From the NCBI GenBank assembly GCA_023263995.1, contig JALQTQ010000007.1, forward strand, positions 1 to 37,061: DNA of 37,061 bases. Reading direction: 5' to 3'. The stretch's first letter is position 1, and each line of letters starts with the position of its first letter. Of this stretch, positions 19,043-37,061 are shown piece after piece. The DNA is from Akkermansiaceae bacterium. Lineage in GTDB: Bacteria > Verrucomicrobiota > Verrucomicrobiia > Verrucomicrobiales > Akkermansiaceae. The position numbers and the translations under genes are program-made. The notes under the pieces are model-generated. The model searched no databases and was not told the origin of the DNA. It worked only from the letters and a program-made list of their open reading frames with translations.

Positions 19043-22000
19043 ATGAAGAATTTCCGTCTCTTTCTCGTGTTGGGTCTCGCAGTTCTAGCGATGGGTCAAT
19101 CTTTGGTGGTTCCCAAAAAGGAGGCACGGCGGATTTCGGTGCTCTTCTTTGGTGCCCCGACGTCCAATGGCCCTGCCCATGATCCCATCACCCGTTACCG
19201 TGTTCTGAAGAAACACTTGGGAGTGCGCGGAATCGACTTCACTTACAGTGAGGATCCCGCCGAAGCCCTGAATGCCGAGACGCTGGCGCAGCACGATGCC
19301 CTTCTCATGTATGGCAATTGGGAGCAGAACGGACGGATGCCTGAGGCTCAGGAAAAGGCCTTGCTGGACTACGTGGAGGGAGGGGGGGCCTTTTTGCCGA
19401 TTCACTGTGCCTCTGCATGTTACGGAGCTTCACCGTCATTCGTGAAGCTGGTGGGGGGCCGCTTCCGCTCCCACGGTGACGGTGTCTTTGCTCCCGAAAC
19501 CACCCGGGTGAAGCATCCGGTGACCGATGGTTATCGGTCCTTCAAGGCGTGGGATGAGACCTACGTGCACAGCGACCACACCGAGGATCGGATCGTCCTG
19601 CAGACCAGAGACGGGGAGCCCTGGACTTGGGTCAGGGAGCAGGGGAAGGGCAAGGTTTTTTACACCGCCTCGGGACACGATCACCGAGTCTGGGACACTC
19701 CGGAATATCACGAATTGCTCTGGCGTGGCATCATGTGGTCGGTCGGTAAGGCGACCCGTGCCAAGTTGCGTGAACTCGCCCTCCCGGAGCTCAAATTCGC
19801 CAAAGCCCAACTGCCGGGTTACCTAGAGCGAAAGACCATCGAAGAATACCAGCTTCCATTACCTCCCGAAGAATCGCTCAAGTTGGCCCAAGTCCCTCCG
19901 GGGTTTGAGCTTTCCCTGTTCGCGAGCGAGCCGGACATCGTCAATCCCATCGCGATTCGCTTCGACGAGCGCGGTCGGGCATTCGTTCTGGAGACCATCG
20001 ACTACCCCAACAACCTTCAGCAGGGCGATTTGGGGCATGACCGCCTGACCATCTGCGAGGACACCGATGGCGATCACCGGGCCGATCGTTTCACCCGGTT
20101 TGCGGAGAAGCTTTCCATTCCCACTTCACTCGTCTTTGCCTATGATGGGGTGATCATTACGAACGGCTCGGAGATTCTCTACCTGCGCGATACCGACGGC
20201 GATGACCGGGCTGATGTCCGCAAGCCTCTCTTTCGCGGCTTCAACATGGGGGACACTCACGCCGGGCCCTCGAACCTCCGCTTCGCGCCCGATGGATGGA
20301 TCTATGCCACCATCGGCTACTCCGGCTTTCGCGGGCAGGTCGGCGGCCAGGAGACCAGTTTCACTCAGGGCATTTTCCGCTTTCGCCTGAATGGTGACCC
20401 CACCACAACGGACCCGGGATCAGACGGAACCTTGCAGGAGTTGGTGCAACTCGAATACATCCAACCCACCACCAATAATACCTGGGGGCTCGACTTTACC
20501 GAGGAATTCGACATTTTCGCGTCTACCGCCAACGGAAACCCGTCTGCTTACGTGACCTTTCCCCGGAGCGAATACGAGCGATTCCAGATCGAGCAACCCC
20601 GCACACCCAGGGCCGATTTCAGGGATCCCTTCAATCCTTCTTCCGCGGATATTCGTCAGGTCGAGAACCACAACACCTACACCTCGGCAGCTAGCCATGC
20701 CATTTACAAGGGAACTCGCTTTCCCGAGGAATATCGGAACAAAATCGCCTTCATCTGCGGACCGACCGGAAAGTTGGTCGGGCAATTTCGCCTCGAACCC
20801 GAAGGCTCGGGGTTCCGCTCTTACCAATTGCCCAATAACATCTACAATTCGGCTGATGCTTGGTCGGCCCCGGTTTGCGCGGAAGTCGGTCCGGATGGAG
20901 CCCTCTGGGTCTGCGATTGGTATAACATCATCGTGCAGCACAACCCGACGCCCTCGGTGCGGTCGGCCGGCTACGATGCCCGCACCGGAAAAGGGAATGC
21001 CTACGTGACTCCGTTGCGCGACAAGCAGCACGGGCGAATCTACCGGATTTATCCCAAGGGAAGCACGGACCAGAAAGCGAAGCCCGCTGTCGCTGGAATT
21101 TTCGAGAAAATGACACGGGCTGGAATCGATGATATCCGTGCGTCCTTGCTTTCGGACGACCGCGTCGTGCGCCGGGCCGCTCTGCGGGTGGCACCGCTCG
21201 ATGACACCTTGGAAAAGACCTTCATCAAGGACGGAAGTTTCACCGAGAAGGATCCCCGCACCCTGGTGGAGCTTCTCCTCGCCTTTTCCCGGGTTGCTCC
21301 TTCTGAGAGCGTGGCGCGAGCCCTGCTAGCCCTCAAGATCGCTCCTTCAGACGCCGGGCTATCTGATGCCCGTCGGGTCGCGATCCGGGCCCATGCCGCC
21401 GAGGTCATTCCTCTCTTGGTGCGCAAGGCCAAGGAAGGCGAAGTTCCCGAGCAAGTGGATCGCAATCTCTTCCCGGATCCCGGTCTGACCGAGGTAAAAG
21501 GTTGGGAGCCCCGGATCTATGGTGGAGACCGGCAGAAGGTCGAGCACGGGGTCTCGAAGGACGGAGGACGCGACGGCTCACCCTGCCTGGTGATCAAAGC
21601 GAGCGAGCCGGTCGACACGGGCTGGGCCTTCAACCTCAGGGTCAAACCGAACACCCGCTACGAATTTGGTGGATACGTCCGGACCGAGAATCTCAAAGTG
21701 CAGACCGGGCCCGGGGTGCTTTTCAATATCCACCGCGGGACCCGCACCAAGGCGGTCAATGATGATAAGGGATGGACCCGCCTGAGCACCACCTTTACCA
21801 CGGAGCGGGGGCAGACCGAAGATCTCTTCCATTGCCTCTTCGGGGGATATGGAAGAGCCACTGGCACGGCTTACTTTGATGACCTTTTCTTCCGGGAGTT
21901 GGGACCAGCCAGCGGGGGGGATGATCCCGAAGAACTGGCTCGGTGGTTTGGAGCCAATGCCCCGATCGCGCAGGTCGAAATGGCCAAGGCGACCTTGGCC

Positions 22001-22468
22001 GGAATCGGGAATCCCCAGTCAAAGCAGATCCTCGCGATTTTGGCCGAAGTTCCCCGACGGACGGAAGGTTCCCGTCAATTTGCGATTGATGCCAAGGTTC
22101 ACCAGCGTGGGAGCGAGGTTTACGCTCAGACCTGCATCGCCTGCCATGGCCCAGACGGCAAAGGCGTGGAAGGGGCCTTCCCGCCCTTGGTCGGTTCCGA
22201 TTGGGTCACCGAAGGCAAGGAGCTGCCGATCCAGATTGTCCTCCACGGCCTGATGGGGCCGGTCGAGGTCGGTGGTAAGAAGTTCAACAACGTTATGCCG
22301 CCGCTTGGGCCCACCTTGGACGACCAGCAGATCGCCGATGTGCTGACTTACGTTCGCCAAAGCTGGAGCAATGATACCTCGCCGGTGTCGGCCGCAGAGG
22401 TGGCCAAGGTGCGCAAGGAAACCGCCGATCGGACTTCAATGTATCAGGCGGCCGACCTCCATCGCTAG
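19043..22468 (+). CDS. ThuA / PVC-type beta-propeller dehydrogenase / CBM-like / cytochrome c fusion
   Basis: Exported protein of 1141 residues. Order: signal peptide (1-19); ThuA domain (about 30-240, with YGNWEQNG, LPIHCAS and GHDHRVWDTPEY), related to sugar-utilisation class I glutamine amidotransferase-like folds; PVC-type 'membrane-bound dehydrogenase' beta-propeller (about 285-680, PPGFELSLFASEPDIVNP at its start, DTDGDDRAD and GPDGALWVCDWYN inside); a helical HEAT-like stretch (about 690-800); a carbohydrate-binding-like jelly roll (about 805-952, ending AYFDDLFFRELG); and a cytochrome c domain with CIACH (C1031, C1034, H1035) and axial M1085 (NNVMPP). The design implies periplasmic sugar or polyol oxidation with electrons passed through the heme. 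The substrate is unknown. It follows the oxidoreductase by five bases. Confidence 0.88.
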   Translation: MKNFRLFLVLGLAVLAMGQSLVVPKKEARRISVLFFGAPTSNGPAHDPITRYRVLKKHLGVRGIDFTYSEDPAEALNAETLAQHDALLMYGNWEQNGRMPEAQEKALLDYVEGGGAFLPIHCASACYGASPSFVKLVGGRFRSHGDGVFAPETTRVKHPVTDGYRSFKAWDETYVHSDHTEDRIVLQTRDGEPWTWVREQGKGKVFYTASGHDHRVWDTPEYHELLWRGIMWSVGKATRAKLRELALPELKFAKAQLPGYLERKTIEEYQLPLPPEESLKLAQVPPGFELSLFASEPDIVNPIAIRFDERGRAFVLETIDYPNNLQQGDLGHDRLTICEDTDGDHRADRFTRFAEKLSIPTSLVFAYDGVIITNGSEILYLRDTDGDDRADVRKPLFRGFNMGDTHAGPSNLRFAPDGWIYATIGYSGFRGQVGGQETSFTQGIFRFRLNGDPTTTDPGSDGTLQELVQLEYIQPTTNNTWGLDFTEEFDIFASTANGNPSAYVTFPRSEYERFQIEQPRTPRADFRDPFNPSSADIRQVENHNTYTSAASHAIYKGTRFPEEYRNKIAFICGPTGKLVGQFRLEPEGSGFRSYQLPNNIYNSADAWSAPVCAEVGPDGALWVCDWYNIIVQHNPTPSVRSAGYDARTGKGNAYVTPLRDKQHGRIYRIYPKGSTDQKAKPAVAGIFEKMTRAGIDDIRASLLSDDRVVRRAALRVAPLDDTLEKTFIKDGSFTEKDPRTLVELLLAFSRVAPSESVARALLALKIAPSDAGLSDARRVAIRAHAAEVIPLLVRKAKEGEVPEQVDRNLFPDPGLTEVKGWEPRIYGGDRQKVEHGVSKDGGRDGSPCLVIKASEPVDTGWAFNLRVKPNTRYEFGGYVRTENLKVQTGPGVLFNIHRGTRTKAVNDDKGWTRLSTTFTTERGQTEDLFHCLFGGYGRATGTAYFDDLFFRELGPASGGDDPEELARWFGANAPIAQVEMAKATLAGIGNPQSKQILAILAEVPRRTEGSRQFAIDAKVHQRGSEVYAQTCIACHGPDGKGVEGAFPPLVGSDWVTEGKELPIQIVLHGLMGPVEVGGKKFNNVMPPLGPTLDDQQIADVLTYVRQSWSNDTSPVSAAEVAKVRKETADRTSMYQAADLHR

Positions 22469-30653: not shown

Positions 30654-31115
30654 ATGTTCAGCGTGAGCGATTTGAGCGAGGAGCAGATCGAAGTGATCCG
30701 TGCTTGGGTAGCTGGCGGTGCCCAAATGGCCGAGGTGCAGAAAAAACTGAACGAGGAGTTTGGCTTCAAGGTCACTTACATGGATACCCGTTTCCTTGCT
30801 CTCGATCTGGACCTCGAGTTCGCTTCGCAGGAGGAACGAGAATCCGAACCAAAGCAGGAAGCGTCCTTGATCCCGGAAAAGCCTGCCGCTCCGGATGGAG
30901 TCGGTGAAGTTTCGGCCACCCTTGACCAAGTCACCCGTCCCGGCGCAATGGTGAGCGGTTCGCTGACCTTCAGCGATGGCGTGAAGGGCATCTGGCTCAT
31001 CGATGAGATGGGGCGCCCGTCGATCGATCCCGACCAACCCGGCTATCAGCCGACGGAGGCCGATCTCATCGCCTTCCAAGAGAAGCTGCGGGTCCTTTTG
31101 GACGGGCATTTTTGA
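30654..31115 (+). CDS. Conserved hypothetical protein with N-terminal helix-turn-helix-like segment
   Basis: 153 residues. Residues 5-45 (LSEEQIEVIRAWVAGGAQMAEVQKKLNEEFG split between helices) look like a small helix-turn-helix or UBA-like bundle. A linker rich in Glu/Pro/Ala (about 55-82) leads to a beta part, ATLDQVTRPGAMVSGSLTFSDGVKGIWLID, ending in an amphipathic helix ADLIAFQEKLRVLLDG. I associate this arrangement with verrucomicrobial proteins of unknown role, but cannot name a function. No signal peptide. It is 42 bases after the kinase gene, so probably one transcript with it. No terminator is obvious before the large gene. Confidence 0.75.
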   Translation: MFSVSDLSEEQIEVIRAWVAGGAQMAEVQKKLNEEFGFKVTYMDTRFLALDLDLEFASQEERESEPKQEASLIPEKPAAPDGVGEVSATLDQVTRPGAMVSGSLTFSDGVKGIWLIDEMGRPSIDPDQPGYQPTEADLIAFQEKLRVLLDGHF

Positions 31116-31295: not shown

Positions 31296-34200
31296 ATGAA
31301 ATCCTTCCGCCTCCCTCGTTTTCGCTTCGAATCCTTTCTCGCCCTAGCCGGAACCATCGCCCTCCCAGCCTTTGCTCCGGCTCAGCAGGAAATCGGCTTC
31401 ATCGAGCAGTTTGCCCTCGCCGAAGACCGAGCCAAGGTGCTCACCCAACTGATCCCGGGCACCGAGGATTATTACTACTTCCATGCCCTCCATTACCAAA
31501 CCGAACGCGATGTCGCGGCCCTCAAGACCATCATGGAGGAATGGAAGAAACGCTTCCAGCATTCGGCCCAGCGGAAAGTGATCGAGAACCGGGAGGCTCT
31601 CCTCCGCTACTCGGATGACCCCGCCGCGACCTTGGAATATCTCAAGAGGGAACTGGGAGTGACCCTGAATCATCAACAGGACGGCAAGGTCCGGGAAGCC
31701 CGGCATCCCTCGGCCCTCGACCCAAAGCTGATTTCCTGGGAATCCTGGCTCAGCGACGCCCTTGGGGGATCCGGCAAGGTGGAGATGATCGATCCCTCGG
31801 GCCTTCATCGCTTCCTCGAAGGAAAACCACAGCTCGATGCCCGCCAACGCCGGGAAATCCTCGCTGCCTTGACGACTCCCGACGCCCCGGGATTGGTCGA
31901 TCTGGTGCTGGCCGAACTAAAGAGCAAGACCAGCCAGGGCTATGGCGAATTCCCGATCCATCGGATGCTCACCAAGGACCAGCTTGATCGACTGGTGGAA
32001 GCGATGCCCACCCTGCGGAATGATCGCAACTTTGTGGACGATTACCTCCTGCGCCTTTTGCCGGGACCCGATGAAAACATGGCCTCGTCGGTCACCGTGC
32101 GGGAGGCCTACCTCGATCGCGCGGAGGCCTTTGTCACGACCCTCGGCGCGCCCTTCAACTCGCTGAAGGCGCACGTTCTCTTCCAGCGCCTCGTCCACGA
32201 CCGGGCCCTCGGAAAGGAGAACCAAAAGCGCTTCCTGACCTACCTGGCCCTTCCCCGCAATGTCGCCTACACCAGTCCGGTCTGGCGGCGGGATGCTCCC
32301 GACGATTGGCGGCATCCGGCCAACTTGGGCGAGGATTTTCGCAACGTGACCACCTTCCCTCCCGTCGGCAGCGAGGAGACGGTGGTGAAGGCCTACCTCC
32401 TGAAGTTCCTCAAGGAGGCCAAGGATTCCTCGACCTTCGCGCCCTACCTGCGCGACACCTGGCTGCGGGAGGTCTTTGCCGAGGCCAAGATCACCCAGGG
32501 GGTTGGGAAGCCTTCCGATTGGGCCTCGCTCCTCTCGCCCTCCCAGTTCCAGGCCTTGAAGGAGCGGGTCGACATTGAATTCGATCCCACCAGCCCGGAG
32601 GTCTTCGGCATCAATGACGAGGTGGTCCTCCCGGTCCATCTCAAGAATGTCCCCAAGCTCATGGTCAAGGTCTTCGAGATCAACACCGTAAACTACTACC
32701 GCAAACTGGGGCGCGAAGTCAGCACCGATATCGATCTCGATGGACTGGTCGCGAATGCCGGCGAGGTCTTCGAATACGACCGCCCGCCCCAGCTCCGCGC
32801 CCTGGAAAAGCTGGCCATCAAGGGCATCCCGAATCGACGGGGACTCTGGGTGGTGGAGTTCATCGGCGGTGGCAAGAGCAGCCGGGCCGTCATCCGTAAG
32901 GGCTCCCTCGGCATGCTCCAACGCACGATCTCAAATGGACAGTTGGTGACGGTGCTCGATGAAAACTACGCTCCCCTGAAAGGAGCCTCGCTCTGGCTGG
33001 ACGGGATGCAATACGACACCGACGACCAAGGCCGCGTTCTCCTTCCCTTCTCGAACAACCCCGGGGTGGGCACCGCCGTGGTGCAGGACGGCGAGGGCTT
33101 CGCCACTCTGGTGCGCCTTTCGCAGACTGCGGAACAATATCGCCTCTCAGCCGGCTTACACCTCGAACAGGAATCGCTCCGCACCGGCGGCCAGGCCCGC
33201 GTGATGGTGCGGCCGTCCCTCTCGCTGGCCGGCGAGACAATCTCGCTCAGCCGACTCGAGTCAGCCTCGCTCGAATTCGCCTCGGTCAGTCTGGACGACA
33301 CTCCGGTGCGAATGACGGTGAACGATGTCAAACTCGCCAGCGACCGGGAATTCCTGCACGAGTTCCGCGTGCCCGACCGGGTGAAATCCCTGACCGTCAC
33401 CCTGCGCGCCAAGGTCAAGGTGGCCAGCCAGGGCGGCAAGGAAGTCGAGCTGACCGCCTCGCGCACCTTCACCGTCAACGAGACCCTCGCCGGCCCGGAG
33501 GTCGCTGATCTCTATCTGAGCCGGATCGACGGACACTACCGCGTCGAGTTCTTCGGCCGCAACGGCGAACCCCTCGGCGGACGCAACCTCGTCGTCCACC
33601 TCCGTCATCCTCATTTCAAGAACCGCAAGACGGTCACCTTGAAGACCACCGAAAATGGAGCCGTCGATCTCGGTGCTCTTGATGGTATCGCCAGCCTCGA
33701 GGTCGAGGCCGCCAATGCCGCCAGCCGCCAGTGGACCTTGCAACACGACCGACGCGACCAGGTCGGGCTCATGACGGTGCGGGCCGGCGAGCCGCTCAAG
33801 GTGCCTTTCACCGGATCCCTGAACCGACGGGAAGTGGCTTTCTTTTCCCTCGCCCGAAACGGCTACCTGGCCGACCAGTTTTCGCTCCTTCGCTTGACTG
33901 ACGGATACCTCACGGCCCAGCTCCCTTCCGGTGACTACCGCCTCTTCCTCAAGGAGGCGGGACAAAGCATCACCATCCTGGCCGCCGACGGGGAAGCCTC
34001 GCAGGGTCACATCTTCAATGAAGCCCGCCGGGTGGAGCTGCCAACACGGGTGCCTTCCCACCTCAAAGGAGTGAAGGTGGGCGCCAAGGCCCTTGAAATC
34101 GAGGTGGCCGGACTTGACCCCCTCACTCGGATTCACGTCGTGGGGACCCGCTTCGTTCCCGGATTTGATCCCTTCGCCTCCCTCGGTGGATCGGAACGCA

Positions 34201-37061
34201 CCGCTCCCCAGATCGGCGAGGCTCGCTTCCTTCCCAGCCTCTACATCAGCGGACGGAAGCTCGGCGACGAGCTGCGCTACATCCTCGAGCGCCGCTACGC
34301 CGAGAAATTCCCCGGCAACATGCTCGACCGCCCCGAACTCCTCCTCAACCCGTGGGCCGTTCGCGATACGGAATCGGGACAGGAGGTCCTCGAGGCCGGG
34401 GATGCCTTCCAACGCAAGCCGGTGCCCGCTCCCGCTGCCAATGCCCTACCCTTCGGCGAGCGACGTGCGGACGCCAGGCAGGAGAAGGCTGGAGGAACTC
34501 CCTCGTTTGAATTCCTCGCCGAGGCTCCCCTCGTGATGGCCAACCTCGTTCCCGACAAAAACGGGAAGCTCACGGTCGACCTCGCGGCCTTCGGAGACCG
34601 CCAGCACGTCCACGTCCTGCTGGTCGATCCCGACGGCACCACCTACCGCACCGTCTCTCTGCCGGATCGCAAGACCCGCGTGCGCGACCTCCGGCTCCTG
34701 AACAATGCCCTCGATCCCAAACGCCACTTCACCGAACAAGACCAGGTGAGCTTCCTCCAGAAGGGCGGGGCACTTGAAATCCCCGACCTGCGCAGCGCCC
34801 GCTTCGAGGTCTACGATCATCTCGGGGCCATCTACCGCTACTACCAAACGCTCAACAACGACCCCGTTCTCCGCAAGTTCTCCTTCGTGGCCAATTGGAG
34901 CAGCCTCGACGACGACCAGAAGAAGGCCAGGTATTCCGAGTTCGCCTGCCACGAACTGAGCTTCTTCCTCTCCCGCAAGGACCCAGCCTTCTTCAAGGAG
35001 GTCATCGTCCCGCACCTCGCCAACAAGAAGGACCGCACCTTCATGGACGACTACCTCCTCGGCCGTCCGCTCCAGAAATACTTCGAGCCCTTCGAGTTCA
35101 CCCGCCTGAATGTGGTCGAGCGCATCCTCCTCTCGCAAACCGACCAGGAAAGAATGAAGGCCCTGCAGCTTGACCTGGAACACCGCCTCGCCATTCAACA
35201 GACCGACCCGTCGCTCACCGCCTACTGGTTCGACACCGGAGTGAGCGGAGGGGGCTTCGGCGGATACGCCAATCTGGCCAAGGACCGCCTGCCTGAGCTG
35301 AATGAAAAGCTGAAGACCGATACCGCCGTGACCGGAGCCCTCCTCGGTGGCCTGACCGATGCCAAGAAAGGGATCCCGGAAGCCGCCGCCAAGGCCAAGG
35401 AGAATGGTCGAGAGCGGAAACGCGCCTTGCAGGAGGTCGAGAAGTTGGAAAGAAAGCAATTGAGTCAGGAGCTTGACGGAGTGGCTGCTGATCCCTTCGC
35501 CGCCGAACTGGGCGAGGCCCTGATCCCTCAGGCCCCGCTCTACCGGGCACTCGAACCAACCCGCGAATGGGCCGAAAACAACTACTACCAGCTCCCCCTC
35601 GACCAACAAAACGGAGAGCTGGTGAAGGCCAATCCGTTCTGGCTCGACCTCGCCCGTCATGGCCTCGGACCGGGCTTCGGTTCGGCCCACCTCGGTGCCG
35701 CCAGCGGAAGTTTCACCGAGGTGATGTTCGCCCTGTCCTTCCTCGACCTTCCCTTTGAAGCCGCCAAGCATCAGGACGAGATCAAGGAAGGCTCCCTGAG
35801 CTTCACCGCCGGGGGCAACGTCCTCTTCTTCCATCGTGAGGTGAAGGAGTCGGGCTTCGCCGCCGACCGCCCGCCCCTGCTGGTGAGCCAGAGCTACTTC
35901 CAGCTCAACGACCGCTTCCGCCTGGAAGACGGCCAGAAGGTCGACAAGTTCATCACCGCCGAATTCGTGAAAGGAGTGGTGTATGGCAGCCAGATCGTGG
36001 TGACCAACCCGACGAGCTCGACCCGTCAGCTCGACCTCCTTGCCCAGATCCCGAAAGGCGCCCTCCCGGTGTCCGGCGGGCTGGCCACCGATTCGTGGGT
36101 CGTTCCCTTGAAACCCTACTCGACCCACCGCGTCGAAACCGCCTTCTACTTCCCGGCTTCCGGGGAATTCCCGGTCTACCCGGCGCACCTCTCCAAGGAA
36201 GGGGAAGTGGTGGCCCACGCCGATGGACTCGTCTTCCAGGTGGTCGATGAACCCTCGAAGGTCGATGAAACCTCGTGGGACTGGATCAGCCAGTGGGGGA
36301 GCGAGAAGGACGTCCTCGATTTCCTCCGCACGGCCAATCTGCACGCCCTCGACCTTTCCCGCATGGCCTGGCGATGCCGGGAGAGCGGCCAGTTCTTCCA
36401 GGACGCCCTCGCCACCCTCAAGCTCCGCGGCTTCTACCATCCCGGCATCCAGGGATACGCCCTCGTCCACAATGACACCGGAGCCCTGCGCGATCTCCTC
36501 CTCATGCAGCGCAGCTTCCTCGATCAATGCGGCACGGCCCTGAGCTGCGATCTCATCGAGATGGACCCGATCAACCGCCGTCGCTTCGAACACCTGGAAT
36601 ACCGTCCCCTCGTCAACAACCGGGCCCACGCTCTCGGCGGGGAAAACCGCATTCTGAATCCGGTGGTCCGACAGCAATACCTCGATTTCCTCACGGTCCT
36701 GAGCCAGCGGAAGTCACTCGATGACCGGGACCACCTCGGCGTGACCTACTACCTCTTCCTGCAGGACCGCGTGGCCGCCGCCCTCGCCCATCTTGCCAAG
36801 GTGCGGCCCGGCCGTCTTGAGACCCGGATGCAATACGATTACTTCCAAGCCTACGCCGCCTTCTATCAGGAAGACCTGAACAAGGCCCGCACTGTGGCGA
36901 AGAAATACGAAAGCTATCCGGTCGACCGCTGGCGCGAACGCTTTGCCGGCCTGCTCGGCCAGATCAAGGAAATCGAAGGAGCCGCTCCCGGCGTGGTCCG
37001 GGAAGGGGACCGCGACCAGGAACAGGAATTGGCCGCTTCCAAGGAACCAGCGCTGGACCTC
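31296..37061 (+). CDS. Giant secreted multidomain protein, alpha-2-macroglobulin-like architecture (3' end outside window)
   Basis: The ATG at 31296 opens a frame of at least 1922 codons with no stop before the window ends. The first 30 residues form a signal peptide (basic MKSFRLPRFRF, a hydrophobic core, then FAPAQ). Residues 35-400 are helical, repeat-like. From about 430 follow several beta-sandwich modules whose loops read like the MG domains of alpha-2-macroglobulins and their relatives (PLKGASLWLDGMQYDTDD-GRV near 560; PLGGRNLVVHLRHPHF near 755). A region near 1200-1250 has CHELSFFLSRKDPAFFKEVIV, and WAENNYYQLPLDQQNGELV lies near 1425. The C-terminus visible is again helical, TPR-like. 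No thioester CxEQ motif was seen. The protein belongs to no family I can name with confidence. Confidence 0.8.
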   Translation, partial: MKSFRLPRFRFESFLALAGTIALPAFAPAQQEIGFIEQFALAEDRAKVLTQLIPGTEDYYYFHALHYQTERDVAALKTIMEEWKKRFQHSAQRKVIENREALLRYSDDPAATLEYLKRELGVTLNHQQDGKVREARHPSALDPKLISWESWLSDALGGSGKVEMIDPSGLHRFLEGKPQLDARQRREILAALTTPDAPGLVDLVLAELKSKTSQGYGEFPIHRMLTKDQLDRLVEAMPTLRNDRNFVDDYLLRLLPGPDENMASSVTVREAYLDRAEAFVTTLGAPFNSLKAHVLFQRLVHDRALGKENQKRFLTYLALPRNVAYTSPVWRRDAPDDWRHPANLGEDFRNVTTFPPVGSEETVVKAYLLKFLKEAKDSSTFAPYLRDTWLREVFAEAKITQGVGKPSDWASLLSPSQFQALKERVDIEFDPTSPEVFGINDEVVLPVHLKNVPKLMVKVFEINTVNYYRKLGREVSTDIDLDGLVANAGEVFEYDRPPQLRALEKLAIKGIPNRRGLWVVEFIGGGKSSRAVIRKGSLGMLQRTISNGQLVTVLDENYAPLKGASLWLDGMQYDTDDQGRVLLPFSNNPGVGTAVVQDGEGFATLVRLSQTAEQYRLSAGLHLEQESLRTGGQARVMVRPSLSLAGETISLSRLESASLEFASVSLDDTPVRMTVNDVKLASDREFLHEFRVPDRVKSLTVTLRAKVKVASQGGKEVELTASRTFTVNETLAGPEVADLYLSRIDGHYRVEFFGRNGEPLGGRNLVVHLRHPHFKNRKTVTLKTTENGAVDLGALDGIASLEVEAANAASRQWTLQHDRRDQVGLMTVRAGEPLKVPFTGSLNRREVAFFSLARNGYLADQFSLLRLTDGYLTAQLPSGDYRLFLKEAGQSITILAADGEASQGHIFNEARRVELPTRVPSHLKGVKVGAKALEIEVAGLDPLTRIHVVGTRFVPGFDPFASLGGSERTAPQIGEARFLPSLYISGRKLGDELRYILERRYAEKFPGNMLDRPELLLNPWAVRDTESGQEVLEAGDAFQRKPVPAPAANALPFGERRADARQEKAGGTPSFEFLAEAPLVMANLVPDKNGKLTVDLAAFGDRQHVHVLLVDPDGTTYRTVSLPDRKTRVRDLRLLNNALDPKRHFTEQDQVSFLQKGGALEIPDLRSARFEVYDHLGAIYRYYQTLNNDPVLRKFSFVANWSSLDDDQKKARYSEFACHELSFFLSRKDPAFFKEVIVPHLANKKDRTFMDDYLLGRPLQKYFEPFEFTRLNVVERILLSQTDQERMKALQLDLEHRLAIQQTDPSLTAYWFDTGVSGGGFGGYANLAKDRLPELNEKLKTDTAVTGALLGGLTDAKKGIPEAAAKAKENGRERKRALQEVEKLERKQLSQELDGVAADPFAAELGEALIPQAPLYRALEPTREWAENNYYQLPLDQQNGELVKANPFWLDLARHGLGPGFGSAHLGAASGSFTEVMFALSFLDLPFEAAKHQDEIKEGSLSFTAGGNVLFFHREVKESGFAADRPPLLVSQSYFQLNDRFRLEDGQKVDKFITAEFVKGVVYGSQIVVTNPTSSTRQLDLLAQIPKGALPVSGGLATDSWVVPLKPYSTHRVETAFYFPASGEFPVYPAHLSKEGEVVAHADGLVFQVVDEPSKVDETSWDWISQWGSEKDVLDFLRTANLHALDLSRMAWRCRESGQFFQDALATLKLRGFYHPGIQGYALVHNDTGALRDLLLMQRSFLDQCGTALSCDLIEMDPINRRRFEHLEYRPLVNNRAHALGGENRILNPVVRQQYLDFLTVLSQRKSLDDRDHLGVTYYLFLQDRVAAALAHLAKVRPGRLETRMQYDYFQAYAAFYQEDLNKARTVAKKYESYPVDRWRERFAGLLGQIKEIEGAAPGVVREGDRDQEQELAASKEPALDL

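Follow-up and report, generated by a model that had tools for sequence, protein, structure and literature searches.

Introduction

In a 2025 preprint, McCafferty et al. describe CAGE, a class of proteins from Tetrahymena and Dictyostelium, about 2,200 residues long, that assemble into hollow D2 homotetramers of ~1 MDa around a cavity of some 600 cubic nm (PMC12485934). The authors count several thousand homologues, most of them from bacteria, chiefly Planctomycetota and Verrucomicrobiota with some Thermodesulfobacteria, that span 1,890-2,418 aa, contain no Pfam domain and carry signal peptides in bacteria, and name alpha-2-macroglobulin (A2M) as the top structural match of CAGE domains 4 and 6 (PMC12485934). 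Bacterial A2Ms include the type I proteins of Salmonella and E. coli, the latter with a bait region at residues 923-963 (PMC4498604), and the type II protein MagD of Pseudomonas aeruginosa, which traps protease without a thioester (PMC5764988). Here we analyze a giant gene at the end of a 37,061-nucleotide stretch of DNA (the window), a complete contig from the metagenome-assembled genome of an Akkermansiaceae bacterium, and compare its product with both families.

Results

The last 5.8 kb of the window (31296-37061, + strand) form one uninterrupted frame of 1922 codons that lacks a stop and remains open at the contig end. By inspection, its N-terminus, MKSFRLPRFRFESFLALAGTIALPAFAPA followed by QQEIG, is a signal peptide with cleavage read between ALPAFAPA and QQEIG, and an equivalent N-terminal hydrophobic segment occurs in 77 of 80 homologues. 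Full-length relatives measure 2,089-2,247 aa, so the window copy is short of about 180 C-terminal residues; a search of its own genome for the absent 3′ end did not find it elsewhere. The sequence-only reading had described a single open frame with a signal peptide, helical ends around a beta-sandwich middle, few cysteines and no CxEQ thioester, and each point agrees with our results: the 1922 residues contain four Cys, no C-x-E-Q thioester is present at a conserved site in any of 81 homologues, and predicted helices occupy residues ~27-423 and ~1663-1918 with beta sandwiches modeled between them.

We predicted two overlapping models, one of window residues 26-1145 (pLDDT 86, pTM 0.79) and one of the C-terminal 1,043 residues of a relative, L024 (pLDDT 78, pTM 0.62). 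Together with the translation and homologue alignments, these models give the following features, all on the + strand:

31296..37061, giant exported protein assigned to the CAGE family, residues 1-1922 of about 2,100, truncated at its 3′ end by the contig edge
31296..31382, signal peptide, likely cleavage after Ala29 between APA and QQ (reading of the translation and homologues)
31374..31655, predicted helical domain, equivalent of CAGE domain 1 (structure model against the CAGE table)
31722..32564, predicted helical domain, equivalent of CAGE domain 2 (structure model against the CAGE table)
32571..33164, first NIE-MG1-like beta pair, CAGE domains 3-4 (structure match to 4zjh, Z 9.4; hhalign to the same A2M region)
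33192..34037, run of three beta sandwiches of macroglobulin type, CAGE domains 5-7, with A2M MG2 aligning to the first (model, structure and profile alignment)
34059..34259, CAGE domain 8a, the leading part of a beta sandwich that is split in two (structure model against the CAGE table)
34401..34514, predicted disordered, hypervariable segment of near-constant length, residues 1036-1073, at about the A2M bait position (pLDDT below 50)
34530..34658, CAGE domain 8b, the remaining part of that split sandwich (structure model against the CAGE table)
34719..35855, split beta domain with an inserted helical domain, CAGE domains 10 and 11 (transferred from the L024 model, uncertain by a few residues)
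35247..35531, disordered linker of variable length within the helical domain (model, homologue lengths and pN/pS)
35886..36248, beta domain resembling complement C3 MG7 and transglutaminase barrels, CAGE domain 12 (coordinates from L024)
36282..37049, two predicted helical domains, CAGE domains 13 and 14 (coordinates from L024)

Comparison of this layout with segments taken from the published CAGE1 table reveals that all 17 compared segments recur in the models in the same order, with the same helix or strand type and at near-equal length; the segment boundaries were set with the CAGE table known, and the length correlation of 0.995 over the 17 segments is accordingly descriptive. Recurring features in the models include the split domains 8 and 10-11 and an unstructured gap in domain 11. 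The giant protein further shares with CAGE proteins (Tetrahymena CAGE1-3, Dictyostelium AbpF and bacterial homologues) its length, the lack of a Pfam domain, a PVC taxonomy, the bacterial signal peptide and A2M-like sandwiches. Differences lie in domain 15, which the window copy lacks because the contig ends and which in the L024 model is a second NIE-MG1 unit; in the signal peptide, which eukaryotic members generally lack; and in the oligomer, seen in Tetrahymena and Dictyostelium, whereas the window copy is known from sequence and models. We hold with high confidence that the gene encodes an exported bacterial CAGE, an assignment made by setting its length, taxonomy, signal peptide and modeled domains against the published description, and it almost certainly adds a member to a known, functionally unsolved family. 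The earlier reading saw here a candidate for an undescribed system; the family is CAGE, described in 2025, and this is a single gene without an operon.

Sequence searches gave no useful match to known families. The window protein gave no convincing match in Pfam, no match in NCBIfam and no match in a PDB sequence search, and among 18 family members the only Pfam signal was a weak CarboxypepD_reg match in three (best E 0.0017). None of the 18 matched the A2M, MG2, BRD or TED models at E 0.1, whereas two A2Ms from related genomes matched all four. Fold searches with the two models returned no CAGE entry, which does not exclude that one exists, and no whole-length fold match in the PDB, and from BFVD came only generic Ig-rich proteins of phages and viruses.

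We used structure and profile alignment to examine the relationship with A2M. Structural re-alignment lays model residues 397-1101 on Salmonella A2M 4u48 residues 155-1011 (Z 13.0, 429 residues), with an rmsd of 14.1 indicating that the modules correspond and their arrangement differs. Native E. coli A2M 5a42 matches the N-terminal model with Z 12.2, and the best row outside the A2M/complement superfamily reaches Z 7.5. An independent hhalign comparison of the 81-homologue profile with one built from 19 A2Ms of related genomes gave 460 collinear columns (score 72.3, P 3.6e-6) and laid the A2M bMG3 and MG2 regions, as positioned by Pfam, on CAGE domains 4 and 5. Control alignments to reversed and unrelated profiles scored 24.0 or less, and shuffled profiles were also run; the score depends on settings, at 46.6 without insert states and 36-44 with A2M subsets. 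The first and last beta pairs match the same A2M unit: the C-terminal 190 residues of the L024 model match the E. coli NIE-MG1 fragment 4zjh (Z 13.7, rmsd 3.2, 180 residues), N-terminal model residues 393-584 match the same fragment (Z 9.4, rmsd 6.2), and profile slices of the first and last beta pairs both align to one A2M region (368-563 and 377-555, P 1.5e-4 and 5e-4). Taken together, these alignments of predicted structures and sequence profiles speak for common ancestry between the beta core and the MG chain of bacterial A2M, and for an internal duplication of NIE-MG1 that placed a second copy at the C-terminus, and both points go beyond what the available portions of the preprint state (PMC12485934). 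Type I A2M and the giant protein align collinearly from NIE-MG1 through the MG chain after it, and in both a disordered insert precedes the second half of a split sandwich; in contrast, the giant protein has no CxEQ and no TED, BRD, MG2 or A2M Pfam match, and has long helical domains on both sides and NIE-MG1 twice. The description of a thioester-free A2M relative offered from the sequence thus fits the beta core, by structure and profile alignment, and fails for the family, which is CAGE and matches no A2M Pfam model. Among A2Ms themselves, several from related genomes carry CxEQ and the window's own genome also encodes a CAEQ thioester A2M (G000:C59, L156); many related genomes have a pair of A2M genes, and CxEQ is absent from many of the copies examined (L142-L160).

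The giant gene represents a conserved family that consists of a single gene. Intact frames of 2,089-2,247 aa occur in 17 relatives (full-length identity 31-63%), and most of about 80 named loci are intact as well, so the frame is no product of chance. Matches occur in 29 of 58 related genomes, counting the window's own, at up to 64% identity, and one scan of named genomes found 268 loci, mostly from Verrucomicrobiota and Planctomycetota; the 80 kept of these 268 include single loci from Desulfobacterota, Myxococcota, Acidobacteriota, Kiritimatiellota and Lentisphaerota. In a FastTree tree the two main phyla are largely separate, with a few changes, and the named entries nearest to the window copy are Verrucomicrobiales. 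An even draw across the phylum found the family in 29 of 240 genomes, a patchy presence that argues against a generally essential function. Folded regions have a pN/pS of 0.11-0.16. Irregular copies also occur: a 3,000-codon frame with a CAGE-like region, perhaps a fusion or start-site artefact (L118:1302-10307, + strand), a tandem pair of CAGE copies with the first cut by a contig edge (L113:1-8142, + strand), and frames broken into two (L032/L048) and into four (L087), probably by frameshifts or sequencing errors.

In the window, the giant gene is preceded by a 153-codon frame without a Pfam match (30654-31115) that ends 180 bases before its start, and ahead of this frame by an APH-type kinase gene and cysS. 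The sequence-only reading had suggested that genes just downstream may matter, and this was not borne out: in several close relatives the gene after CAGE lies on the opposite strand, and neighbor clustering around about 80 copies found no conserved neighbor, arguing for a stand-alone gene and against an operon-encoded system. The recurring neighbors were only common PVC genes (DUF1501, sulfatases, PSCyt/PSD1, GFO/IDH/MocA) and MoxR-DUF58, the latter mainly in the window's genus, and the idea of a conserved operon was dropped on this result. Genes for a MoxR ATPase and DUF58 occur upstream of CAGE, at 2.3-5.5 kb, in L043, L045, L050 and L052 and downstream in L058. These loci cover several close relatives and a single more distant contig of Verrucomicrobiota, and the independent cases are too few for a link. 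A plasmid search found none.

Discussion

The A2M-like core raises the possibility that the protein is a type II A2M like MagD, a periplasmic protein whose bait is cut and which traps the protease non-covalently. The core is A2M-like by structure and profile, the protein resembles MagD in being exported, thioester-free and built of A2M-like modules, MagD sets a precedent for trapping without a thioester (PMC5764988), and a disordered segment of nearly constant length, residues 1036-1073, sits near the bait position. The structural matches extend only slightly beyond this loop, to A2M residues a short way after the E. coli bait, which places it approximately and not at residue level. The segment (pLDDT below 50) is hypervariable, with a length of 35-43 in most homologues, and its pN/pS of 0.35 exceeds that of the folded regions, yet the second, length-variable linker reaches 0.47 and pN/pS shows no sign of positive selection in residues 1036-1073. 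The loop thus evolves like an ordinary loose linker, with no excess over a plain one, and we claim neither a bait region nor a protease-trap function from it. The type II reading is further weakened by the failure of all 18 members to match A2M Pfam models that true A2Ms match, by extra helical domains and a C-terminal NIE-MG1 copy foreign to A2M architecture, and by gene context: MagD belongs to a six-gene operon with partners MagA, MagB and MagF, whereas CAGE genes are longer and stand alone, with no mag-like operon and no mag partner conserved near about 80 copies. We judge this reading improbable.

A large cell-surface adhesin or structural scaffold, suggested from the sequence, would account for the size, export signal and tandem beta sandwiches, and Foldseek returns Ig-rich adhesion proteins too, at lower rank. 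However, the prediction is compact, confident and multi-domain rather than repetitive (pTM 0.79), the module order follows A2M and CAGE, and the relatives' C-termini show no anchor or sorting signal; our analysis brought nothing in support of this suggestion, and we consider it very improbable. We give almost no credence to an artefact of assembly or annotation: the frame is cut by the contig end and in several relatives the sequence breaks within the gene, but the intact frames of the 17 relatives and most of the about 80 loci refute this reading, and the low pN/pS of folded regions speaks against it.

The explanation we favor as a whole, and regard as likely, is an exported bacterial CAGE that would form a tetrameric shell with an A2M-like core and act non-covalently. 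Our analysis establishes the export signal, an intact and conserved family, the domain order, the A2M-like core and the lack of a thioester; tetramer, cavity and cargo would apply to this protein by analogy. From its signal peptide, the protein is probably periplasmic, and as in the CAGE family four copies probably form a hollow ~1 MDa shell, which could enclose or hold other proteins non-covalently, as a container, holding chaperone or protease trap. With no thioester, no recognized enzyme domain and no partner genes, non-covalent action is the most likely mode; the enclosing or trapping function itself we consider evenly balanced. CAGE is an ancient megadalton shell of unsolved function, and the tie of its core and duplicated C-terminal unit to bacterial A2M gives it an evolutionary origin and a testable function in non-covalent trapping, for which bacterial copies offer a tractable single-gene system. 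A tentative and rather doubtful scenario is that CAGE arose in bacteria from A2M by losing the thioester, adding helical domains and gaining a second NIE-MG1 at the C-terminus by duplication, turned into a periplasmic tetramer that serves as trap or container, and was later transferred to eukaryotes; the preprint raises the reverse direction as a possibility (PMC12485934).

Two other frames were noted. On contig G026:C266, a 2,608-aa frame (L161:3539-11365, − strand) lies on the same strand as CAGE, about 5.6 kb upstream; it has a TPR/YfiO-like N-terminus, matches bMG3, MG2, BRD and A2M weakly, and is a possible intermediate architecture between A2M and CAGE. Within the window, positions 19043-22465 encode a 1,141-aa protein that joins ThuA, DUF7133 and cytochrome c domains and adjoins a GFO/IDH/MocA oxidoreductase gene.
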